From: Alphaproteobacteria bacterium
Lineage (GTDB): Bacteria > Pseudomonadota > Alphaproteobacteria > Sphingomonadales > Sphingomonadaceae
Assembly (NCBI GenBank): GCA_005883305.1
Contig: VBAC01000001.1
Coordinates: 1,240,001 to 1,304,000, forward strand
DNA: 64,000 bases
Reading direction: 5' to 3'
Shown piece after piece: positions 35,251 through 48,033 of the stretch (positions within the stretch are counted from its first letter, which is position 1; the number at the start of each line of letters is the position of its first letter). The notes beneath the pieces were generated by a model. That model was not told where the DNA came from. It worked only from the letters and a program-made list of their open reading frames with translations, and did not search any database. The position numbers were made by a program, and so were the translations under genes.

Positions 35251-36102
35251 TCAAAGGTCCTCGGGCCGAAGGCCGTAGGTGCGCGCCGACCAGGGCGATT
35301 CCGGATCGCCGTCGCTGCCGAGATAATCGGGCTTCACGTAGCGCGACAGGCCCGATTTCGGCGCCGTGACGGGCGTTCCGTCGGCGAGCAGCCGCATGTC
35401 GAACGGCGCTTCGAACAGCAAGCCGATCTGGCCCGAGCGGCACCAGCGCACACGGGCCTGGGCGGCGACCGCGCCGCCGCCGGCAAGCTCGAGCACCACC
35501 GGCGCCCCTTCCGGGAGATCCTCGCCGCAATCGAGCATCGCGCCGTTGGCGGAAATGTTGCGCAGCCGAACCTCGTGCGATTCGATGCCGCAATGGAGCA
35601 CGCCCTTCAGGATCAGGGCCTGGCGAGGGGCCCGGGCCGGTCTCATCGCGATCTTTTCCGGCTGCTCGCCCGCGCGGCGGCCGCTGACGATCAGCTGGCG
35701 CACGTTGGCGGGAGCGATGAGCACCGTTTCCTCGGCGAATTCCAGGCCGATGTGCCGCCCTTTGACCCAGCGCACGGCACAGCGGGTCTGGTTGCAATCC
35801 TCGATGCTGATGCTGATTCGCTCGCCGACCCGCGCCTCGATGTCGCTGTCGATCATGACTCCGTGCGACGAGACGTTGACGACCGCAACCTCGATCTTCT
35901 TCCGGCGGAAGGTGATCACCGCCTTGTCGGCGAGGTTCATGTGCCGATCCTCGCGCCGCTGGTTGGTCGTGCGCGATTCCTCTCGGCGAACGGCGATTCC
36001 CGTAAGGCCCGCACTGGGCCGGGGAGCGGCGCGCTCGGCGCCCTTGCGGACGACGATCTCGCGCGCGCCGCCCCCCTGCATGAGTGAACGTATCTCGTGC
36101 AT
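35251..36102 (-). CDS. Protein with two PilZ domains, putative c-di-GMP effector
   Basis: The gene encodes 283 residues. The first PilZ domain, about residues 47-140, has RREDR with VNVSSHGVMID, matching the RxxxR and (D/N)xSxxG nucleotide-binding pattern. The second, about residues 155-245, has the related LRNISANGAMLD. Such tandem PilZ proteins sense c-di-GMP, which controls the switch between motile and sessile life. The start at 36102 has no strong ribosome binding site. It is eight bases upstream of the single PilZ gene, so they are likely co-transcribed. Confidence 0.82.
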   Translation of the reverse strand: MHEIRSLMQGGGAREIVVRKGAERAAPRPSAGLTGIAVRREESRTTNQRREDRHMNLADKAVITFRRKKIEVAVVNVSSHGVMIDSDIEARVGERISISIEDCNQTRCAVRWVKGRHIGLEFAEETVLIAPANVRQLIVSGRRAGEQPEKIAMRPARAPRQALILKGVLHCGIESHEVRLRNISANGAMLDCGEDLPEGAPVVLELAGGGAVAAQARVRWCRSGQIGLLFEAPFDMRLLADGTPVTAPKSGLSRYVKPDYLGSDGDPESPWSARTYGLRPEDL

Positions 36103-36193
36103 AAACCAAACCCCCTTCCGGCCGCTTCCGGATTTGGGCCTATGCCACGAAAATTGCTGAGGAATTGTTACCCTGGAGTCTAATCTGGATTAA

Positions 36194-38017
<1,824 letters not shown>

Positions 38018-38031
38018 CAGAAATGCTCTTT

Positions 38032-38397
38032 CTACAAAGTGTAGGGTACATGAACCCCTGGCATGTTCGCCGGGAAGTCCCTGGTGTTACGCGTGACGAG
38101 GACCGCGCCGTTCACCTGCGCCGTCGCGAGGATGAAGGCATCGAGCAGCTTCATCCGCGAACGGTGCCGGATGTCCGCGGCGGCCGCGGCGATCCGCGCG
38201 TCCAGCTCGACCACCTCGAAAGGCTCGATCAACTGCTGAACCTCCGCCCGGCTTTCGAGCGGTTCGCCGGCGATTACCTCCGTCCAAACGATCCTGCTGA
38301 TGCGGTGGCGCGGATAGCGGAAGAGCTCCGCTCGCGCCTGCGCGCGGCGGAGCAGCCAGTCGATAACGATATTCGTGTCGAAAAAGGGATCGGACAT
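38032..38397 (-). CDS. PIN-domain toxin (VapC-like)
   Basis: The gene encodes 121 residues. The PIN-domain acidic residues are visible as FFDTNIVIDWLL (Asp7), the WTEVIAGEP segment (Glu), and later LLDAFILATA (Asp) and TRNTRDF (Asp). These are the four metal-binding residues of VapC RNases. It begins five bases after the antitoxin stop. The pair is a type II toxin-antitoxin module, expected to cleave tRNA or rRNA; the specific target is unknown. Confidence 0.88.
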   Translation of the reverse strand: MSDPFFDTNIVIDWLLRRAQARAELFRYPRHRISRIVWTEVIAGEPLESRAEVQQLIEPFEVVELDARIAAAAADIRHRSRMKLLDAFILATAQVNGAVLVTRNTRDFPANMPGVHVPYTL

Positions 38398-38402
38398 GGA
38401 GG

Positions 38403-38636
38403 TCAGTCGAAGGTCCGATCCTCGCGAATGGCGAGCTGGTATTCCAATCCATCCCGGATGTCCGCGCGGCCCGACCAATGGCCATAGCCGCGGTCGATCC
38501 AGTCGTTGTTCGAATTGCGCGCCAGGTAAAGGATCACGGCCTCGCGAATCGCCGCCGCACGGGATTGCTTGCGCTTGGCGGCCAAGGCATCGAGCTTTTC
38601 AATATCGTCATCGGGAATGTCGATCAGCGTGCGCAT
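38403..38636 (-). CDS. Ribbon-helix-helix antitoxin of the VapC-like toxin
   Basis: The gene encodes 77 residues. The N-terminus MRTLIDIPDDDIEKLDALAAKRKQSRAAAIREAV has the beta-strand-helix-helix pattern of CopG/RHH antitoxins. The C-terminal half (RGYGHWSGRADIRDGLEY) is the toxin-binding tail. It precedes vapC and lies downstream of a palindromic, AT-rich operator, as expected for autoregulation. Confidence 0.85.
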   Translation of the reverse strand: MRTLIDIPDDDIEKLDALAAKRKQSRAAAIREAVILYLARNSNNDWIDRGYGHWSGRADIRDGLEYQLAIREDRTFD

Positions 38637-38644
38637 GATATGTT

Positions 38645-38671
38645 GATATCATATCGCGATATCATACTCAA
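38645..38671 (-). promoter_or_regulatory. Operator/promoter of the toxin-antitoxin operon
   Basis: The sequence gatatcatatcgcgatatcat is a nested palindrome (GATAT, CGCG, ATATC) in an AT-rich patch between glmU and the antitoxin ATG at 38636. On the minus strand a possible -35 (TTGAGT) and -10 (TATCAA) are 17 bases apart. The -10 sits only about 6 bases before the ATG, so the transcript could have a very short or no leader. Autoregulation by the antitoxin is inferred. Confidence 0.6.
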
Positions 38672-40029
38672 CTCGTTTTCTCTTTCTTGGCCGCCATCGC
38701 CGTGCGGAAACGCTTGGCGCCGCCCGGCTTTTCGGTCTGGACGCCCCGGCCCAGCGCCACGGCGTCCGGCTGCACATCTCTGGTGATCACCGAGCCCGCG
38801 CCAACCAGGGCGCCGTCGCCGATCGTCACCGGGGCAACGAGTGCGCTGTTGGAGCCGATAAAGGCTCCGTCGCCGATCACCGTCCGATATTTGAAGAAGC
38901 CGTCATAATTGCAGGTGATCGTGCCCGCGCCGATGTTCGCGCCCGCGCCGATCTCCGCGTCGCCGAGATAGGCGAGATGATTGGCTTTGGCGCCCTTGCC
39001 CAGCTTCGCCTTCTTCACTTCGACGAAATTGCCGATCCGGGCGTCCTCGCCGATGTCGGCGCCGGGACGAAGACGCGCATAGGGACCCACCTGTGCGCCC
39101 GCCGCGATGACAGCGCCTTCGATATGGCTGAACGCCTTCACCGTGACCCGCTCGCCGATCGTGACTCCGGGGCCGAAAACCACGTTGGGCTCGATCACCG
39201 TGTCGCGCCCGATCCGGGTGTCGTGGGCGAACCAGACGGTGTCCGGGGCAACCAGGGTGACTCCGTCCGCCATAGCCTCGAGCCGGCGGCGCCGCTGCCA
39301 CTCGGCCTCGACCAGGGCCAGCTCGGCGCGGCTGTTGACGCCGGCCATCTCCCATGGTTCGGCCTCGATCACGGCCGACTTGCGGCCGTCCCGCCCGGCG
39401 AGCATCACCACGTCGGGAAGATAATATTCGCCGGCCGCATTGTCGTTGCCGACCCGGGCGAGCAAGGCGAACAGATCTTCGGCGCGCGCCGCCATCAGCC
39501 CCGAATTGCAGAGGTCCACTGCGCGCTCCTGCGGAGTCGCGTCCTTATATTCGACCATCTTTTCAATGGTTCCGTCGGGCGCCGCGAGAATCCGGCCATA
39601 GGCCTGCGGATCGGCGGGGCGGAACCCGACCACGACCGCCGCGGGCGAGTCCGGCGCGTTCAGCCGCGTCAGCATATGGGCCATCGTCTCGGCCTCGATC
39701 AGCGGGACGTCGCCGTAGAGGATTAGGACGTCGCCTTCGAAGCCGGCGAGGTTCGCTTCGGCCTGGCGCACGGCGTGGGCCGTGCCGAGCTGCCGATCCT
39801 GGACGACGAGCTCGCCGCCGCGCGCCTCGACGAGGGCCTGGACCTGCTCCCGGCCGGCCCCGACGACGACGATCTTGCGCGCCGGAGCGAGCGTGTCGAC
39901 GATTCCGAGCAGATGATCGAGCATCGCCCGGCCGGCGATCGGGTGAAGCACCTTGTGCACGTCGGACTTCATTCGCGTGCCCTTACCGGCAGCGAGGATG
40001 ATGGCGGCAAAGGGGCGGGCGCGCGTCAT
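38668..40029 (-). CDS. glmU: Bifunctional UDP-GlcNAc pyrophosphorylase / GlcN-1-P N-acetyltransferase
   Basis: GlmU performs the last two steps to UDP-N-acetylglucosamine. The N-terminal nucleotidyltransferase domain has ILAAGKGTRMKSD near residue 10. The C-terminal left-handed beta-helix shows the hexapeptide pattern (IGDGALVGAGSVITRDV) and the active-site-region YLGDAEIGAGANIGAGTITCNYDG. Total 453 residues from ATG 40029. Longer upstream frames are spurious. A toxin-antitoxin pair now stands between glmU and glmS. Confidence 0.97.
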   Translation of the reverse strand: MTRARPFAAIILAAGKGTRMKSDVHKVLHPIAGRAMLDHLLGIVDTLAPARKIVVVGAGREQVQALVEARGGELVVQDRQLGTAHAVRQAEANLAGFEGDVLILYGDVPLIEAETMAHMLTRLNAPDSPAAVVVGFRPADPQAYGRILAAPDGTIEKMVEYKDATPQERAVDLCNSGLMAARAEDLFALLARVGNDNAAGEYYLPDVVMLAGRDGRKSAVIEAEPWEMAGVNSRAELALVEAEWQRRRRLEAMADGVTLVAPDTVWFAHDTRIGRDTVIEPNVVFGPGVTIGERVTVKAFSHIEGAVIAAGAQVGPYARLRPGADIGEDARIGNFVEVKKAKLGKGAKANHLAYLGDAEIGAGANIGAGTITCNYDGFFKYRTVIGDGAFIGSNSALVAPVTIGDGALVGAGSVITRDVQPDAVALGRGVQTEKPGGAKRFRTAMAAKKEKTS

Positions 40030-40090
40030 GTGTGCTGCGGCATGGCACGACAGCCTTGCCATTTCCAGAGGCCGTCCCCAATCGACGGCG

Positions 40091-40753
40091 ATGGTCTCAT
40101 TTCCTTTCGACGTCGTCGCCTTCGATCTCGACGGCACACTCGCAGACACGTCGCCCGACATCGCTGCGGCCTTGAACCTGATGCTCGGCGATCTCGGGCG
40201 GCCGCCGCTGAAGCCCGAACATATTCGCTCGTTGATCGGCGACGGCGCCAAATCGCTGATCCGCAAGGCGCTGGCGGCCACGGGCGAGGCTGGCGATGCC
40301 CTCGTCGAAGAGGGCTATCCGATTTACCTCGACCGTTACGGCGACAACGTCTGCGCCGGCACGGTCCGCTATCCCCATGTCGAGCAAGCAATGGACGATC
40401 TGGCCGCGCGCGGCGTGCGGCTCGCGCTCTGCACGAACAAGCCGGAGGCGCTGACCCGCAAGCTGCTCGACGCGCTCGGCTGGTCCGAGCGCTTCGCCGC
40501 CATAGTTGGCGGCGACAGCTTGCCATGGCGCAAGCCGGACGCGCGTCCCCTGCTCGAGACCCTGGAGCGCGTCGGCGGCGGTCGGATGGCCTTCGTCGGC
40601 GATTCGATCATCGACGCTGAGACGGCGCAAGCGGCAGGCATCCCATTCATCGCCGTCAGCTTCGGCTTTTCCGACCTTCCGACGACCGAGTTCGGGGCCG
40701 ACGCGGTGATCGACGACTATGCCGAGCTGATCGATGTGCTGGAGCGCCTTTAG
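40091..40753 (+). CDS. HAD hydrolase, phosphoglycolate phosphatase-like
   Basis: The gene encodes 220 residues. HAD motif I is FDLDGTLADT (nucleophile Asp), motif II is CTNKPEA, and motif IV is FVGDSIIDAETAQAAG. The cap domain and GDGAKSLIRKA are as in Gph. It probably removes phosphoglycolate arising from DNA repair or ribulose bisphosphate oxygenation; specificity is inferred. The end overlaps the convergent NTase gene by four bases. Confidence 0.9.
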   Translation: MVSFPFDVVAFDLDGTLADTSPDIAAALNLMLGDLGRPPLKPEHIRSLIGDGAKSLIRKALAATGEAGDALVEEGYPIYLDRYGDNVCAGTVRYPHVEQAMDDLAARGVRLALCTNKPEALTRKLLDALGWSERFAAIVGGDSLPWRKPDARPLLETLERVGGGRMAFVGDSIIDAETAQAAGIPFIAVSFGFSDLPTTEFGADAVIDDYAELIDVLERL

Positions 40754-41742
40754 CGCGTGGCTTTGATCCATAGGTGCCGCGCAAGCATCAGCGGCGGCAT
40801 TCGAAGCCAGTGCGAGCGCACGTAGAAGAAAAAGCGGATCAATTTGCGGCGCTCCTGGCCCCATCCGTTGCGGGCGAGCAGGCGTGCCTCGAAGAGCCGG
40901 TCGGACAGGCGCGCGCGGCCGGCCCCAGCCGGGGTGCCGTAAAGGCGGTGCGCAAGCCGCAGCGCGCGAGCGACCGGGCCGGCAAGCTGGTGACGCCGCG
41001 CGCGGGCATCGAGCGTCCGCCGGAAATCGTCCGAATCGAACTCGCGCAGCAGACGATCGATGTCCCAGAGATTCCTGAGACCGCCAGCAAGGTCGCCGTC
41101 CGCGAAGAGATGCGCCGCAGCGTGGACGATCATGTCCGCCGGCGAAAGCGTGCGAAGCCCGTTTTCGAGCGCGACGCTGTCCGCGATCAGCGCCCCAGCG
41201 TCGGGGCTGGGCCGCGCCGTCGGGGGCAGGATCGTGTGGTGCACGTCGATCATCCGGTCGCGGTCCCGGTGGATCAGCGGGGGCAGCTCGTGCATCCAGC
41301 GGCGGTAATAACCGTCGTCATATCCCTTGGTGTCCTTCACATGCTCCCAGCCGGCGGCCAGCAGCGCCGCTTCGACCGCGTCGAGGGATTCGCGGGGCAC
41401 GAGGATGTCGAGATCGCCGACGCTGCGCCCGGCGCTGGCTTCCAGTCCGGCGGCGTGGAAGGCGGTGCCCTTCAGCAGAATCACCGGCACGCCGAGCGGG
41501 GCGAGCGCACGGCGGGCCATCTCCGCCTCCCACAGCGCCTGTGTGCGCTGGCGGGCGGAGTCGCGGCGAGCGGCGTCGAATATAGCCGCGACGCGCGGTG
41601 GAACGGCGCGGCCCTCCATGCGGCAGGCGAGGCTGCCGATAAGTTGCTCGGCGCGCGCGGCGCTGATGAGCGCATTCCAGTCCTCGATCGCCGTCCCGTG
41701 CGGATCGCTCAGGGCGCGAGCGAGAAGCCCGGCGGCCTTCAC
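40750..41742 (-). CDS. Nucleotidyltransferase-family protein (NTP_transf_5), HPr-rel-A locus
   Basis: The gene encodes 330 residues. LLKGTAFHAAGL and GRSVGDLDILVPRESLD match the nucleotidyltransferase fold PF14907 (NTP_transf_5), with the GS-like and DxD region in SVGDLDI. DRDRMIDVHHTI and LSPADMIVHAAAHLFADGD occur later. It starts at GTG 41742, overlapping the kinase gene stop (GTGA). It is the last gene of the four-gene set. The activity could be adenylyl or another nucleotide transfer onto a small protein, but the target is unknown. Confidence 0.85.
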   Translation of the reverse strand: MKAAGLLARALSDPHGTAIEDWNALISAARAEQLIGSLACRMEGRAVPPRVAAIFDAARRDSARQRTQALWEAEMARRALAPLGVPVILLKGTAFHAAGLEASAGRSVGDLDILVPRESLDAVEAALLAAGWEHVKDTKGYDDGYYRRWMHELPPLIHRDRDRMIDVHHTILPPTARPSPDAGALIADSVALENGLRTLSPADMIVHAAAHLFADGDLAGGLRNLWDIDRLLREFDSDDFRRTLDARARRHQLAGPVARALRLAHRLYGTPAGAGRARLSDRLFEARLLARNGWGQERRKLIRFFFYVRSHWLRMPPLMLARHLWIKATR

Positions 41743-42605
41743 GCGGCAAGCTCCTGCCGGAAATCCTCGACCAGGCCGAGCGCGGTCGCCGTGTCGGGAT
41801 AGTCGATGGCGAGCGCGGGCACGGCGCGGACGAGCCGGGTCAGCGCCGTAAAACCCGGCTCCCCGAGCGCGACATAGTTGGTCGAGGCCTGCGTGAGCCG
41901 CATGAACGTCTCCGCCTGCCCGACCGCACGCACGGCCGCTTCGGCACCGAAGCGCGGGAAGAGAATGAGCGCCGGCCTCGCGCCCTCCCCCATCCGCTCG
42001 ACCGCCTCCCGATTGGGCCGCAGGTGACGGATGTCGCCCTTGGGCGTGCCGGCGAGGCGCGGGCCGAAGCGCGCGGCCTCGGCCTCCGCCTCCATCACTG
42101 CGATCGCCTTGTTCTTGAGGCTGACCGCGCGCGGGAAGGGAAGCAGCATGCCGCTTTCCAGGTCGAGCAGGGCGAATTCGTCGCCCATCAGGCGCCAGCC
42201 GCGCTCGCCGAGAAGCGCGGCGAGAGTCGATTTGCCCGCGCCGGATTCGCCTGTGAGAATGAGCGCGCGCCCGTCCTTCTCGACGCTTGCGGCGTGGAGA
42301 AGGAGCCAGTTCTTCTGGCCGAGCGCCATTTGCAGGTTCATGCCCATCTCGGCCGCGAGCAGGCCCAGGGCCAAGGGCAGGGGCGCGGCGTCGGGCAGGA
42401 CGTAATCGCCGCGGATCGCCACCGAGGGGCGAAGGAATCGCCGCCAGGGCTTCTCGGGCTCGAGCCGCACGGTGAAATCGGCGATGCCCCCCTCGGGCGC
42501 GGGATAGCCGCGGTAGAGATCGGCGAGCGCGTCGAGCGGCCCGGGCCAGGCGCTGCCGATGCGAAAGCCCACCGCGCCGATCTGCACGTCGAACTGGTGC
42601 CTCAT
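41739..42605 (-). CDS. HprK-related kinase A
   Basis: The gene encodes 288 residues. The Walker A motif GESGAGKST and the following helix (LAALLGERGWRLMGDEFALLDL) have the HPr kinase/phosphorylase-like organisation, including GDEFALLD in the position of the HprK acidic block. The protein corresponds to the family annotated HprK-related kinase A. No HPr or PTS gene is nearby, so its phosphate acceptor is likely something other than HPr. The gene overlaps the PqqD-like gene by four bases and the NTase gene by four bases. Confidence 0.88.
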   Translation of the reverse strand: MRHQFDVQIGAVGFRIGSAWPGPLDALADLYRGYPAPEGGIADFTVRLEPEKPWRRFLRPSVAIRGDYVLPDAAPLPLALGLLAAEMGMNLQMALGQKNWLLLHAASVEKDGRALILTGESGAGKSTLAALLGERGWRLMGDEFALLDLESGMLLPFPRAVSLKNKAIAVMEAEAEAARFGPRLAGTPKGDIRHLRPNREAVERMGEGARPALILFPRFGAEAAVRAVGQAETFMRLTQASTNYVALGEPGFTALTRLVRAVPALAIDYPDTATALGLVEDFRQELAA

Positions 42606-42868
42606 GCCCGTCGCACCAGACCGGCCGCCTCAAGCTCGTTCAGCCGGGCATGGATGACCTCGCCGCCCTCGAACGCGAAACGGGCGCCCAGGCGGCGGAG
42701 CAGCTCGGCGGCGTCGGCGGGGCCCGCGCCCAGCGCGTCGAGGATTTCCGGCGCCGGCGGCGCGACGATGTGGGTCATGCCGGAGGATACATGATAGACG
42801 ACCGTGAGGCCATCGAGCGGGACCGAACGAACCGCTCCGCAATCCGCGATATAGACGGGATCGGCCAT
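42602..42868 (-). CDS. PqqD-like peptide chaperone of the HPr-rel-A system
   Basis: The gene encodes 88 residues. The PqqD/RRE fold pattern is visible: LDGLTVVYHVSSGMTHIVAPPAPEILDAL followed by a winged helix (RRLGARFAFEGGEVIHARLNELEAAGLVRRA). PqqD-like domains hold precursor peptides for modifying enzymes. Directly upstream lies the exported small protein and directly downstream the kinase, all on the same strand. It is probably the substrate-presenting subunit. Confidence 0.85.
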   Translation of the reverse strand: MADPVYIADCGAVRSVPLDGLTVVYHVSSGMTHIVAPPAPEILDALGAGPADAAELLRRLGARFAFEGGEVIHARLNELEAAGLVRRA

Positions 42869-42882
42869 CGGCCGCGCCCCGC

Positions 42883-43290
42883 TCAGCGCGGCATCTGCAG
42901 CGAGGCGTAGCAGGTGAAGCCGCTCATCCCCGCCTGCAGCCGCCGGATGTAATTGGCATAGGCCTGAGCAGCGCTCGGATCGACGCCGGCGGGCGTGGCG
43001 CCGGAGCGCAGCAGGTTCTTGACCTCCTCCCCGCGCAGCGGGCGCGCCAAAGGGGGCGCGGCGCCAGGCGTGCCGGGAGCGACCAGGCTGCCGTCGGGCG
43101 CGACATAGGAGCCGCCGGCCGTCGGCGCGGGCACCGGTATCTCGCAGTTGAGCACCGAGCCCGCGGTCTGGGCCAGCGCAGGGCGCACCGTGATGACCGT
43201 CGAAGCGGCCGCCGCGCCCAGCACGAGGACCGTGCGCCGGCTTGGAACGAAGCCGCTCGTCCCGATCGCCTCTTCGTCAGTGCCGCTCAT
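42883..43290 (-). CDS. Small Tat-exported protein, candidate substrate of the HPr-rel-A system
   Basis: The gene encodes 135 residues. The N-terminus contains PSRRTVLVLGAAAASTVITV, a twin-arginine signal, with ALAQ as the probable cleavage site. The mature part (about 95 residues) is Pro/Gly/Ala-rich, with two cysteines (LNCEIPV and FTCYASL) and a short C-terminus (ASLQMPR). It is the first gene of the four-gene operon, 14 bases before the PqqD-like gene. I do not recognise a family. Its position makes it the best candidate for the modified protein or peptide. Confidence 0.65.
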   Translation of the reverse strand: MSGTDEEAIGTSGFVPSRRTVLVLGAAAASTVITVRPALAQTAGSVLNCEIPVPAPTAGGSYVAPDGSLVAPGTPGAAPPLARPLRGEEVKNLLRSGATPAGVDPSAAQAYANYIRRLQAGMSGFTCYASLQMPR

Positions 43291-43386
43291 GGAATTTCCG
43301 ATACACCTGGGCCCTTTAATAAGGGTAAAGCGGGGACGAGGCGAGCGGCGGCATATCCAGGCGTCCCGCTTCGGGACAGGGGCGGG

Positions 43387-44610
43387 ATGACGGAGAAGAC
43401 GGCGATCAAGGCAGCGGCGATCAGCGTCGCGGGCACTGCCGGGGCGAGCGCCGCCATCCTTGCCGGCGCGCCTCCCGTCGCGGCGCTCATCGCGCTTGTC
43501 GCCGGAATTGCCTCCTATGCGATCGCGGCCGGTGCGGAGGCTCCAATGCCTGCGGAGACCGTGCCTGCCGGGCCCGCCCCGACGCCCCTTCCCCCCGCCG
43601 GCGACCTTCTGAACTCGGTCACCGATCCGATGCTGCTCGTGCGCGACCGCCGCGTGCTGATCGCCAACCGCGCGGCCAAGGACCTGCTGGGCGACCATAT
43701 CGAAGGATCGGACGTCCGCCTCGCCATTCGCCACCCCGCTGCGACCGAGCGGCTTGGAGATCACGGCCAGCGGGAAGAGGCGTTCGAGCTGATCAGCCTC
43801 GGCGAGTCGGGCGGGCAATGGGAGCTGGCGGTAACGCCGCTTCCCGACGGCAGCCGCACGGTGAGGCTGCGCGACCACAGCCAGGTCAGGGCGGCGGAGC
43901 AGATGCGCGTCAACTTCGTCGCCAATGCGAGCCATGAGCTCAGGACCCCGCTGGCGACCTTGCTCGGGTTTCTCGAGACGCTCGAGGACGAGGCGGCGGG
44001 CGGCGATGCGGCGACCCGCAACCGCTTCCTCGCCATTATGTCCGGCGAGGCGAAGCGCATGCGCGACCTGATCGACGATCTGATGTCCCTCTCGCGGATC
44101 GAGGCCGACCGTTACGCGCTGCCAGGTGAGACGGTCGCGCTCGCGCCGATCGTCGCGGAGGTCGTCGCAGGGCACGACGTCGCGGTCGACGATCGTGTGC
44201 CCGGCGCGGCGGTCCGCGGCGACCGCGGGGAGCTGGCGCAGATGCTGAGCAACCTCGTCGTCAACGCGATCAAATATGGCCGCGAGGGGACGCCTGTGCG
44301 AATTAGGCTGGAGGCGGCCCAGGGCGAATGCGTCCGCCTCAGCGTCGCCGACGAGGGCGAAGGCATCGCAGCGGAGCACATCCCTCGACTGACCGAGCGA
44401 TTCTACCGCGTCGACGCTGGCCGCAGCCGCCAGGTCGGCGGGACGGGCCTCGGCCTCGCCATCGTCAAGCACATCGTGCTGCGCCATCGCGGCCGCCTCG
44501 ATATCGCCAGCGAGCCCGGAGTCGGCACCACCGTCAGCGTCTACCTGCCGCTGGCGGAAGGCCTGTCATCAAAGAGTCATCCAGACGCCACACAAGCCAT
44601 CCCGTCCTGA
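43387..44610 (+). CDS. phoR: Phosphate regulon sensor histidine kinase
   Basis: The gene encodes 407 residues. The N-terminus has two hydrophobic segments (AAAISVAGTAGASAAILAG and AALIALVAGIASYAIAAG), then a PAS-like domain and the dimerisation/phosphoacceptor box NASHELRTPL with His179. HATPase motifs follow (NLVVNAIKYG, VADEGEGIA, GGTGLGLAIVKHI). The context before pstS and phoB identifies it as PhoR. It is divergent from the HPr-rel-A operon. A Pho box lies in its last codons. Confidence 0.93.
   Translation: MTEKTAIKAAAISVAGTAGASAAILAGAPPVAALIALVAGIASYAIAAGAEAPMPAETVPAGPAPTPLPPAGDLLNSVTDPMLLVRDRRVLIANRAAKDLLGDHIEGSDVRLAIRHPAATERLGDHGQREEAFELISLGESGGQWELAVTPLPDGSRTVRLRDHSQVRAAEQMRVNFVANASHELRTPLATLLGFLETLEDEAAGGDAATRNRFLAIMSGEAKRMRDLIDDLMSLSRIEADRYALPGETVALAPIVAEVVAGHDVAVDDRVPGAAVRGDRGELAQMLSNLVVNAIKYGREGTPVRIRLEAAQGECVRLSVADEGEGIAAEHIPRLTERFYRVDAGRSRQVGGTGLGLAIVKHIVLRHRGRLDIASEPGVGTTVSVYLPLAEGLSSKSHPDATQAIPS
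44563..44580 (+). promoter_or_regulatory. Pho box upstream of pstS, inside phoR
   Basis: CTGTCAT-CAAA-GAGTCAT matches the PhoB-binding consensus of two CTGTCAT-like seven-mers spaced by four bases. The first seven-mer is exact and the second matches at five of seven positions. It lies 60 bases upstream of the pstS start and within the phoR coding sequence. PhoB should bind here during phosphate starvation and drive the pst operon. Confidence 0.75.
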
Positions 44611-44639
44611 CCCGCCTGAGGGTCGCCAGGGAGGCTCAC

Positions 44640-45692
44640 TTGAAAAAATCGCTGATGACGATCCTCGGCGCGGCCCTCGCGCTCGCCGGCTGCGGCAGCC
44701 CGACCGGCACAGGCGGCGAAACCGCCCCGCGGCAGGAAATTCGAATCGTCGGCTCCTCGACGCTCTACCCCTTCACCGTGGCGGTCGCGGAGCGATTCGC
44801 TCAAGGGAGCGGCGGCTTCCGCGCCCCCATCGTCGAATCGACCGGCACCGGTGCGGGCCTCAACCTGTTCTGCAACGGAGTCGGCGCTCAGCATCCCGAC
44901 ATCGCCGACGCGTCGCGGCGGATCAAGGCGAGCGAGTTCCAGCAGTGTGTCCATAACGGGGTGCGCCAGATCGTCGAGGTCCCCGTCGGAATCGACGGGC
45001 TCGCCCTGATCGAATCCTCGCAGCGGCCGACCGGCTTCCGCCTCACCCCGCGCGACATCTACATGGCGCTCGCCGCCAACCCGTTCGGCCGTCCTCAGGC
45101 GGCGCACAGCTGGCACGAGGTCAATCCTGCGCTGCCCGACGTCCCGATCCGGGTCTACGGCCCGCCGCCCACCTCCGGCACACGCGACAGCTTCGCCGAG
45201 CTGATCCTCGAAAAGGGCTGCGACAGCGATCCGGCGATGGTCGCGCTCAAGTCGGCCGATTCGGACCGCCACAAGCAGGTCTGCACGCATATCCGCGAGG
45301 ACGGCGCATTCATCGAGGCCGGCGAGAACGACAATCTGCTGATGCAGCGGGTCGCCGAGAATCAGGGCGCGATCGGCGTTCTCGGCTATTCGTTCTTGGA
45401 GGAGAATGCGGATCGCGTGCGCGGCATTCCGATCGGCGGAATCGCTCCCACGGCGGAGACGATCCAGAACTTCACCTATCCCGGCGCGCGGCGGCTCTAC
45501 CTTTACGTGAAGGGGGAGCATTTCGGCGCCGTTCCGGGCCTTCGCGAGTTCCTGGCCGCTTACTCGCAAGCCTGGGGACCGGGCGGCTATCTCGCCCAGC
45601 ACGGCCTCATCCCGCTGACCGACGCCGAGCGCGCCGCGTCGCTCGCGATCGTGCAAAATCCGACGCCGATCACGGCCGAGGGGCTGCACTAG
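44640..45692 (+). CDS. pstS: Phosphate ABC transporter substrate-binding protein
   Basis: The gene encodes 350 residues. The N-terminus has a signal peptide with lipobox (LALAGC), so it is a lipoprotein anchored in the periplasm-facing membrane. The binding core includes RIVGSSTLYPFTVAVAERF, TGTGAGLNLFC and PPTSGTRDSFAE, the phosphate-binding loops of PstS. The start is TTG 44640 (TTGAAAAAATCG) with AGGGAGG about seven bases upstream. The Pho box at 44563 is just before it. Confidence 0.95.
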   Translation: MKKSLMTILGAALALAGCGSPTGTGGETAPRQEIRIVGSSTLYPFTVAVAERFAQGSGGFRAPIVESTGTGAGLNLFCNGVGAQHPDIADASRRIKASEFQQCVHNGVRQIVEVPVGIDGLALIESSQRPTGFRLTPRDIYMALAANPFGRPQAAHSWHEVNPALPDVPIRVYGPPPTSGTRDSFAELILEKGCDSDPAMVALKSADSDRHKQVCTHIREDGAFIEAGENDNLLMQRVAENQGAIGVLGYSFLEENADRVRGIPIGGIAPTAETIQNFTYPGARRLYLYVKGEHFGAVPGLREFLAAYSQAWGPGGYLAQHGLIPLTDAERAASLAIVQNPTPITAEGLH

Positions 45693-45719
45693 AGCGGATC
45701 GAGCCGGGGCGAACCGGAA

Positions 45720-47102
45720 GTGACCACGACGACCATAGCGCTGCTGTTGCTGGGCTTCGGGCTTATCGCCTGGCTGGCGGGGCGCGCCAAAGCGCGGGCG
45801 TTCCTGGGGCCGGACCGCGCCCGGCCCCATTCGCTGCCAAGCTATCATGGCTGGTATGCGGCCCTGTTCGCGGCCGTCCCGGCGATCGTCTTCCTGGTCG
45901 TCTGGGGCCAGGTGTCGGGAGGGCTGATCTATCAGCAGGTGATGGCCAGCCCGCAGGCGACGGCGCTGCCGAGCTTCGCCATGCAGCGCTCGGCGATCCT
46001 CGGCGAGGCCTATGCGCTCGCCACCGGCGCAGCGACCGCAGCCTTCAACCCGCAGGCGCGCGCCCTCGCGCCGGTCTACGCGCAGGCGATCTCTTTCTAT
46101 GCCTGGATCGGCTTGGCTGTCGCGGCCCTGATCGCCTTCGCCGGCGGCGCCTTCGCCTACACCCGCATTTCCCCCGCATTCCGCGCGCGCACGCGCGTCG
46201 AGCGAATGGTGATGGGGCTGCTGCTGGGGGCGTCGCTGATCGCGGTTCTGACGACTCTCGGCATCGTCGTCTCGCTCCTGTTCGAAAGCCTGCGATTCTT
46301 CGGCTTCGTCTCGCCGCTCGAATTCCTGACGGGCCTCAAGTGGAGCCCGCAAATGGCGATCCGCGCCGATCAGGCCGGATCGTCCGGAGCGTTCGGCGCC
46401 ATCCCGCTCTTCTGGGGGACGATCTTCATCGGCGCGATCATTGCAATGATCGTCGCCATTCCGCTGGGGCTGATGAGCGCGATCTACCTGACCCAATATG
46501 CGAGTCCCCGCCTGCGCGCCTGGATGAAGCCCTTGCTGGAGATCCTCGCCGGAGTGCCGACGGTCGTCTACGGCTATTTCGCGGCGCTGACGGTGGCGCC
46601 GGCCATTCGCGACCTCGGCCTCTCCCTCGGCATTCCGGCCTCGAGCGAATCGGCGCTTGCGGCAGGCCTGGTCATGGGCATCATGATCATCCCGTTCGTC
46701 TCCTCGATGGCCGACGACAGCCTCGCCGCGGTGCCGCAGGCGATGCGCGACGGCAGCCTGGCGATGGGCGCGACCCGCAGCGAGACGATCAAGAAGGTGC
46801 TCGTGCCCGCCGCCTTGCCCGGAGTGGTCGGCGGCGTGCTGCTCGCCGTCAGCCGGGCGATCGGCGAGACGATGATCGTGGTGATGGCGGCGGGGCTCGC
46901 CGCAAACCTCACCGCCAACCCCTTCGCCAGCGTAACCACGGTGACGACCCAGATCGTCCAGCTGCTGACCGGGGACCAGGAGTTCGACAGCCCGAAGACG
47001 CTCGCCGCCTTCGCCCTCGGCCTCGTCCTGTTCCTGATCACGCTCACGCTCAACATCGTCGCGCTTCGCGTTGTGAAGAAATATCGCGAAGCCTATGAGT
47101 GA
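45720..47102 (+). CDS. pstC: Phosphate ABC transporter permease PstC, long form
   Basis: The gene encodes 460 residues, larger than the usual 320 or so because of an N-terminal extension of several extra helices. The permease core has SAIYLTQYASPRLRAW, GVPTVVYGYF and the EAA loop region AMRDGSLAMGATRSETIKKVLVPAALPG. The start is GTG 45720. The long N-terminal form is found in many alphaproteobacteria. It overlaps pstA by eight bases. Confidence 0.94.
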   Translation: MTTTTIALLLLGFGLIAWLAGRAKARAFLGPDRARPHSLPSYHGWYAALFAAVPAIVFLVVWGQVSGGLIYQQVMASPQATALPSFAMQRSAILGEAYALATGAATAAFNPQARALAPVYAQAISFYAWIGLAVAALIAFAGGAFAYTRISPAFRARTRVERMVMGLLLGASLIAVLTTLGIVVSLLFESLRFFGFVSPLEFLTGLKWSPQMAIRADQAGSSGAFGAIPLFWGTIFIGAIIAMIVAIPLGLMSAIYLTQYASPRLRAWMKPLLEILAGVPTVVYGYFAALTVAPAIRDLGLSLGIPASSESALAAGLVMGIMIIPFVSSMADDSLAAVPQAMRDGSLAMGATRSETIKKVLVPAALPGVVGGVLLAVSRAIGETMIVVMAAGLAANLTANPFASVTTVTTQIVQLLTGDQEFDSPKTLAAFALGLVLFLITLTLNIVALRVVKKYREAYE

Positions 47103-48033
47103 CCCGACCCTCGAAGCGGCGGCCGGCCCGGCGCCGACCGACTGGAGCGGCAGCGCGATCCAGCGGCGAATCCGCCGCCGCTACGCGGCCGAGCGGCGTT
47201 TCCGGCTGGCCGGGCTCGCGGCGATCCTCATCTCCGCGGGCTTCCTCGCCTTCCTGCTCGGCAACATGCTGATGAACGGCCTTGGCGGTTTTGTCGAGAA
47301 TGGCGGCATCGACTGGGGATTCTTCACCGGGGCCGACGCGACCGAACCCGTGCGAGTCGGGATCTGGGGGGCGTTCAAGGGCTCCCTGCTGACGATGATC
47401 GTCACGCTTCTGCTCGCCTTCCCGGTCGGCGTGCTTTCGGCGGTCTATCTCGAAGAATATGCGCCCCGGAACCGCTGGACCGACATGATCGAGGTTTCGA
47501 TCAACAATCTCGCCGCGGTGCCCTCGATCATCTTCGGCCTGCTGGGGCTCGCGGTCTTCCTCAACACCTGGCACCTGCCGCGCTCGGCGCCGCTGGTCGG
47601 CGGGCTGACGCTGGCGCTGATGACCATGCCGGTGATCGTCATCGCGGGACGCAACGCGATCAAGGCGGTGCCGCCTTCGATCCGCGACGCGGCGCTCGGC
47701 ATCGGCGCGAGCCGGATCCAGGTCGTCTTCCACCACGTCTTGCCGCTGGCGCTGCCCGGAATCCTCACCGGCACGATCATCGGCATGGCCCGAGCGCTCG
47801 GCGAGACGGCACCGCTTCTGATGATCGGAATGCGCGCGTTCATCGCCGCGCCTCCGGGCGGCTTCGAGCAGCCGGCGACCGCTTTGCCCGTGCAGATCTT
47901 TCTCTGGTCGGACGAGGTCAGCCGCGGCTTCGTCGAGAAGACCTCGGCGGCGATCATCGTCCTGCTCGTCTTCCTGCTCGCGATGAACGGCATCGCCATC
48001 TATCTTCGCAACAAATTCGAGAAACGCTGGTGA
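47095..48033 (+). CDS. pstA: Phosphate ABC transporter permease PstA
   Basis: The gene encodes 312 residues with six or so hydrophobic helices. [29 protein letters not shown] and the EAA loop [27 protein letters not shown] are typical of PstA. It forms the membrane channel with PstC. The start overlaps the end of pstC. Confidence 0.95.

Follow-up and report, generated by a model that had tools for sequence, protein, structure and literature searches.

We report that a compact operon in a sphingomonad genome probably makes a single modified, exported small protein, with a kinase and then a transferase that would modify a constant C-terminal serine before export by the twin-arginine translocation (Tat) system. 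The operon lies at 43290-40750 on the minus strand of a 64,000-nucleotide stretch (the window) from a member of the Sphingomonadaceae (assembly GCA_005883305.1, contig VBAC01000001.1, positions 1,240,001 to 1,304,000). Judged from its open reading frames (ORFs) and the DNA, it encodes a small Tat-type protein (P0001), a PqqD-like protein (PqqD_rel_X), an HprK-related kinase (HprK_rel_A) and a PF14907 nucleotidyltransferase (NTase). A 14-base gap separates the first two genes, and the PqqD-like/kinase and kinase/NTase junctions are four-base overlaps (ATGA and GTGA, respectively). An earlier reading of the bare DNA, hereafter the sequence-only reading, had described this layout, these gene identities and a link to the HPr-rel-A system. 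The coordinates agree with it, all three enzyme-type proteins score over the cut-offs of their families, including the curated cut-offs of TIGR04352 and TIGR04353, and the small protein carries an RR signal and two cysteines. It had also cast the small protein as the substrate of the enzymes, which it very probably is, given the sequence evidence assembled here, and to this we add a likely site that it had not named, the C-terminal serine of an [ST]CxxS motif.

P0001 begins with an RR signal (SRRTVLVLG...), a hydrophobic stretch and ALA, and cleavage is presumed, by eye, to follow ALA40. The host genome encodes TatC (217 bits against a cut-off of 132.7), so that an RR signal and a Tat translocase, the two features of a Tat substrate, are both present; export is predicted from the signal as read in the sequence. 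The protein has two cysteines, C49 and C127, which are proposed to form a disulfide pair, and a C-terminal motif, T126-C127-Y-A-S130, whose serine is the proposed acceptor residue. No Pfam or NCBIfam family matched P0001 or 35 relatives. Across 36 sequences C49, T126, C127 and S130 were invariant, whereas the pair of positions separating C127 from S130 varied. The predicted structure of the small protein was of low confidence (pLDDT 63.3, pTM 0.46), and conservation of the signal region carries little weight, because the sequences were anchored on the RR best fitting the pattern, which biases the column counts.

The C-terminal signature recurred in two sets of kinase loci, the first consisting of 100 loci sampled across the phylum and the second of 80 named loci, mostly sphingomonads to judge by their titles (the best 80 among 586 relatives). 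A wider scan, which required signal and motif on the same strand within 5 kb and hence is not independent of the motif, found an upstream signal-bearing ORF with a C-terminal [STN]CxxS at 78 of 100 loci in the first set and 78 of 80 in the second, where both failures were kinases at contig ends. When precursors were picked by signal and position alone, they were found in 82 of the 100 first-set loci, and 70 of these 82 picks contained [ST]C[WYFLIVM]xS in their last 60 residues (shuffled mean 0.6, maximum 3); after removal of redundancy the count was 63 of 75 (shuffled mean 0.5). The corresponding figure for the second set was 58 of 69; the remaining 11 proved, where inspected, to be inserted genes picked in error. 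This picker failed or erred at inserted genes, long upstream reading frames and contig ends, and left 29 of the 180 loci without a pick. Outside the upstream zone, the motif occurred in 2 of 276 signal-bearing ORFs, both of which were displaced precursors (L098 and L139), and in 7 of 2464 when all ORFs of at least 75 residues were counted. In all 129 picks with an [STN]C-hydrophobic frame in the last 60 residues (71/71 and 58/58), the residue at C+3 was serine and never threonine. The 71 motif-bearing picks of the first set ranged from 68 to 292 residues in length, and 70 of them had an even number of cysteines after the signal, which suggests disulfides formed outside the cytoplasm.

The small protein and the kinase also occurred together. 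Among 60 relatives, the kinase was present over cut-off in 38 and the small protein in 26, all of them within those 38; of the 12 relatives with the kinase and no P0001 match, 11 were inspected, and in all of these a signal-bearing small protein of divergent sequence lies upstream. Within the genus (26 genomes, including the host's own), 23 had both kinase and small protein and 3 had neither, so the co-occurrence that the sequence-only reading had put forward as a check was borne out. In these three genomes (G008, G013 and G019) gph adjoins phoR, with none of the four genes between or around them in the 8.5-9.5 kb inspected; the kinase (over cut-off) and the small protein were absent genome-wide, a search that did not extend to the PqqD-like and NTase genes. 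Two others, G010 and G020, have all four genes beside phoR. The same gene order was found again in relatives, and because of this recurrence and the empty sites in three congeners we regard the operon order as more than chance. In broader samples the kinase exceeded its cut-off in 8 of 289 genomes for the class, 156 of 396 for the order, 61 of 398 for the phylum and 0 of 14 controls.

The 22 first-set loci that failed the wider scan comprised one inverted precursor (L098), one cut by a contig (L154, with the motif present and the protein start lost at the contig end), two with the precursor at another locus (L128 and L159), eleven with precursors lacking CxxS, one degenerate case and six in which none was identified. 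In three genomes (G490, G355 and G373) a first pass had found the enzymes without a neighbouring precursor, and a genome-wide search then located one in each. In G490 it lies 4 kb upstream; in G355 and G373 (loci L255 and L256) it adjoins phoR, with the enzymes elsewhere in the genome, and these two precursors carry TCFASI and SCLNSF. G032 (L070), in which the kinase match fell into two pieces and the precursor lacked the motif, perhaps through an assembly error, was excluded from the evidence. Some loci had additional genes. At L058 and L144, a single enzyme set is preceded by precursor genes in tandem, two in number and diverged, each of which has a C-terminal CxxS; at L076 (G017), 1165-309 bases ahead of the kinase start, genes that read as an ArsR-like regulator and an SRPBCC-like protein separate the precursor from the PqqD-like gene; and at L224 a small glycine-rich ORF with an RR signal (RRSFLKTCGRFAASVPPAMTI) lies on the minus strand, 1896-2183 bases after the kinase start.

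The type of precursor followed the kinase tree, needing 2 changes where shuffling gave a mean of 10.6 and none of 500 shuffles came as low, in keeping with the co-variation that had been suggested as a further check. This was a quick tree with 90 of 100 rows labelled, types A and B having been assigned by eye and by motif before it was built; two rows of more than 330 residues were trimmed to 300, and three of the ten unlabelled rows (L128, L139 and L159) were later shown to have CxxS precursors. Ten of the eleven loci without CxxS fell into one supported group of 13 rows, with L113 outside it. By eye, seven of these eleven precursors (L112, L114, L115, L116, L118, L119 and L122) share a GYWKN-like stretch, and the divergent L113 precursor has AAYTSI near its end.

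The three proteins encoded with P0001 retain conserved features of their families. Across 22 sequences, the columns found invariant in the PqqD-like protein (TIGR04353, 52.2 bits, cut-off 35) include S29, G30, T32, H33 and P38. The kinase scores 248 bits against TIGR04352 (cut-off 200) and falls below the cut-off of Pfam Hpr_kinase_C (20.8 vs 33.3 bits). H104, G122, G124, K125, S126, T127, D142-E143, K164-N165 and K189-G190 were invariant in 16 diverse kinases, and the histidine, P-loop and acidic pair align with those of solved HPr kinases. For the NTase (PF14907, 185.4 bits, cut-off 31.2), K91-G92, G105-R106, D110-x-D112 and D166 were invariant in 34 sequences, and a predicted model (pLDDT 90.3) gave weak matches to nucleotidyltransferase folds (best E 1.1e-3). 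Queried with P0004, tblastn detected an NTase at 90 of the 100 loci; at six of these it lies 2.6-3.2 kb away from the start of the kinase. No export signal was noticed on the three enzymes by reading, no predictor having been run.

In G870 (L104, 5974-8064, plus strand) kinase and NTase are fused in one 696-residue ORF, with TIGR04352 (350 bits) at residues 10-289 and PF14907 (169 bits) at 344-598. Elsewhere the set includes further enzymes. Judged by the position of the precursor, 12 of the 80 named loci have a gene inserted between precursor and adapter; 11 of these are titled Sphingobium, and other Sphingobium loci have no insert. The one insert tested, at L208 (Sphingobium), is a GT4 glycosyltransferase (PF00534, 98 bits). 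L095, from the phylum sample, has a TPR-sulfotransferase (PF13469, 164 bits) between kinase and NTase and is neighboured by XrtA-type glycosyltransferases and an amidotransferase; a BLASTP comparison of P0001 with its precursor gave only a weak, misplaced match (E 0.008).

From these observations we propose the following sequence of events. The PqqD-like adapter would bind the small protein, still held in the cytoplasm, perhaps through the signal region; the HprK-like kinase would phosphorylate the constant serine of the C-terminal [ST]CxxS, S130 in P0001; and the PF14907 transferase would elaborate the phosphoserine, with a sugar or sugar phosphate as the favoured addition. In some lineages an added GT4 glycosyltransferase (one Sphingobium locus) or TPR-sulfotransferase (one locus with XrtA-type genes) might act as well. 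Tat would then export the finished protein, the signal would be removed and the even-numbered cysteines would pair outside. Modification is placed before export because the enzymes are assumed to be cytoplasmic. Passages of PMC9266682 and PMC8498205 describe PadeK (paeninodin) and PsmK (pseudomycoidin) as HprK-like kinases that phosphorylate a C-terminal serine, and they credit PsmN, an NTase homologue, with adding one or two hexoses to the pseudomycoidin phosphoserine. Since relatives with known products phosphorylate serine, we propose by analogy that S130 is phosphorylated and then elaborated. S130 is the probable site of phosphorylation, whereas a sugar-type addition after it is held more tentatively, with a chance that we put slightly short of even. 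The sequence-only reading had the protein "phosphorylated or nucleotidylated"; the first half of that claim is retained as a prediction, and phosphorylated and then elaborated now seems the better wording, because those passages credit PsmN with hexoses on phosphoserine and a glycosyltransferase is present at at least one locus. The cassette adjoins exopolysaccharide genes in some lineages, and our guess is that its biological role is related to the surface or to exopolysaccharide. A still wider picture, unlikely to hold in its entirety, would make HPr-rel-A cassettes across Pseudomonadota the source of hypervariable phosphoglycoproteins that are exported and disulfide-bonded; the Tat signal would also serve as the leader recognised by the adapter, a C-terminal phosphoserine would anchor or prime a surface glycan and lineage-specific glycosyltransferases or sulfotransferases would tailor the product, making this a Tat-routed counterpart of the kinase pathways of ribosomally synthesized and post-translationally modified peptides (RiPPs).

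Several points weigh against the proposed sequence of events. The chemistry is deduced from sequence and analogy. All 129 motif serines are encoded by TCN codons, so codon switching offers no sign that the serine itself is under selection; the Cys-Ser pair might have a role in folding or recognition. Eleven loci (L082, L099, L112-L119 and L122) have precursors of a second type that lack CxxS, which means that this motif cannot supply the acceptor at every locus, and no precursor was identified in 6 of 100 loci (L084, L085, L100, L101, L107 and L123), of which L100 and L123 are near contig ends and L085 has an unclassified RR-bearing ORF. Ten of the 100 loci gave no NTase match in the tblastn search with P0004. 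A PDB profile search with the PqqD-like protein returned no significant relative, and no solved RRE was found by sequence. The kinase has Asp-Glu at the position of Asp-Asp in solved HPr kinases, and the lasso kinases, which have a His-Lys-Asp-Asp motif according to a review passage (PMC9266682 / PMC8498205), could not be aligned here. Finally, in the linear RRE/HprK/NTase pathway of Bacillota considered below, which makes linear polyphosphorylated peptides (LPP), deletion of lppN is reported to have produced no detectable change (PMC13381572).

The small protein could be the substrate and yet carry another mark, such as a nucleotide on the serine or a modification of a cysteine, a tyrosine or the C-terminus, with CxxS acting as a recognition or disulfide element. 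The PF14907 protein keeps D110-x-D112 and D166 and its nearest folds, weakly, are nucleotidyltransferases; the motif cysteine is as invariant as the serine; and a review passage allows that PsmN may be a true nucleotidyltransferase, with a host glycosyltransferase then acting (PMC9266682 / PMC8498205). We nevertheless consider this unlikely, given that the HprK-like relatives with known products phosphorylate serine and that AAYTSI in L113, a single case judged by eye, perhaps represents loss of the cysteine with the serine kept.

Less probable again is that the enzymes work on something else (an HPr-like or cell-surface molecule), with the small protein secreted as a partner that acts separately. 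Enzymes and precursor do lie at separate loci in G355 and G373, and the substrate role of the small protein is itself a deduction from sequence, but in most loci the enzymes come with a small signal-bearing protein, which three congeners lack together with the enzymes and whose type varies along the kinase tree, and no second shared candidate was noticed in the loci listed, among which no systematic search was made. That the small gene has no part in the system and merely keeps its place beside phoR through conservation of gene order, we regard as very improbable. The cassette does stand beside phoR-pst and gph-glmU in many loci of the order, but the pairing persists amid other neighbours (XrtA-type loci, G152 and G226), where the enzymes are absent the small gene is absent too, even though phoR and gph are still there, and in none of the 60 relatives was it found without the enzymes, all 26 with a match having the kinase over cut-off. 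Mere synteny was set aside because of these empty sites and differing neighbourhoods, and modification of S130 by the kinase and then the transferase is the reading that we carry forward.

Features of the operon and its flanks in window coordinates; gph was scored on a longer ORF (39953-40753)
Feature	Coordinates	Strand	Details
Small Tat-type protein P0001, proposed substrate	42883..43290	-	135 aa; no family match
PqqD-like (RRE-like) protein, proposed precursor-binding adapter	42602..42868	-	88 aa; TIGR04353
HprK-related kinase A, proposed protein-serine kinase	41739..42605	-	288 aa; TIGR04352
PF14907 nucleotidyltransferase, proposed to act on phosphoserine	40750..41742	-	GTG start, 330 aa
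PhoR-like sensor kinase, flank outside cassette	43387..44610	+	TIGR02966 288 bits, under cut-off 334.2
gph (phosphoglycolate phosphatase), other flank, outside cassette	40097..40753	+	TIGR01449 199 bits, cut-off 180

The cassette is flanked in the window by the phoR-like and gph genes, in line with the phoR-pst and gph-glmU neighbourhood just described. Regulation by phosphate was considered and rejected: with up to three mismatches to the consensus allowed, the window has a single Pho-box-like pattern, which lies away from the operon at 44563-44580, against 1.6 occurrences expected by chance. A role in phage defence was likewise rejected, as none of the four proteins matched PADLOC. The ORF list of 36000-48000, which was read without a search aimed at these genes, contained no radical SAM, HPr or PTS gene, as the sequence-only reading had said. 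Between glmS and glmU, at 38032-38636 on the minus strand, two overlapping genes, one for a PIN-like and the other for a small ribbon-helix-helix-like protein, resemble a VapBC-type toxin-antitoxin pair, as judged from their translations.

Among known systems, the enzyme trio belongs to the HPr-rel-A system, since HprK_rel_A, the PqqD_rel_X gene next to the kinase and the PF14907 NTase next to the kinase are all over cut-off; an NTase in that position is presumably part of the HPr-rel-A definition. The trio is catalogued as named families with no function assigned, and we found the term "HPr-rel-A" in no paper among open-licence PMC papers. What this analysis adds is the substrate family, the CxxS signature, the Tat-type signal and the extra enzymes. 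Among the papers listed in searches of the open-licence PMC literature we recognised no description of a Tat-type substrate family with a CxxS end, the LPP paper (PMC13381572) being a relative only, and the family libraries gave no match, so that as far as these searches go the family is undescribed. A named, unexplained enzyme trio thereby gains a candidate substrate, a protein that recurs across a large bacterial group, and a candidate residue.

The cassette resembles the paeninodin and pseudomycoidin pathways, as described in the passages cited above, in pairing an HprK-like kinase and an NTase homologue with a C-terminal serine. Unlike in lasso peptides, the proposed substrate here is a Tat-type protein. 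A lasso pathway was set aside, as the whole host genome (G000) had no match to the lasso B2-type protein (PF13471) and only a distant, sub-cut-off match to the lasso cyclase NF033535 (207 of 525 bits), an asparagine-synthase-type protein about 390 kb away of a kind also found below cut-off in 9 of 14 control genomes.

The LPP pathway, published for Bacillota in 2026 (PMC13381572), offers a further parallel by gene type, with an RRE adapter, an HprK-like kinase and an NTP transferase around a linear ribosomal precursor; it is also described as lying near polysaccharide loci. LPP precursors are reported to be 35-200 residues long, with a conserved N-terminus and a variable remainder, and number one to three per cluster, and LppK phosphorylates Ser3 of LppA, with no phosphorylation of the S3A, S3T or S3Y variants (PMC13381572). 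The whole words Proteobacteria, Pseudomonadota, Tat, twin-arginine and TIGR04352 do not occur in the main text of that paper. The pathway is described there as having an archaeal-type (SpI-like) signal peptidase, an MsbA-like exporter, a YxxPxVL-type leader motif and an acceptor at Ser3 of the core, whereas the system described here has a Tat-type signal and a C-terminal CxxS. Neither an SpI-like peptidase nor an MsbA-like exporter is among the four operon genes, the rest of the genome not having been searched for them, and by reading P0001 has no YxxPxVL leader motif, its only YxxP being YVAPDG at 62, after the signal. If the proposed mechanism is true, Pseudomonadota would possess a Tat-routed version of the lasso and linear phosphopeptide kinase-transferase pathways, one that acts on whole small proteins.

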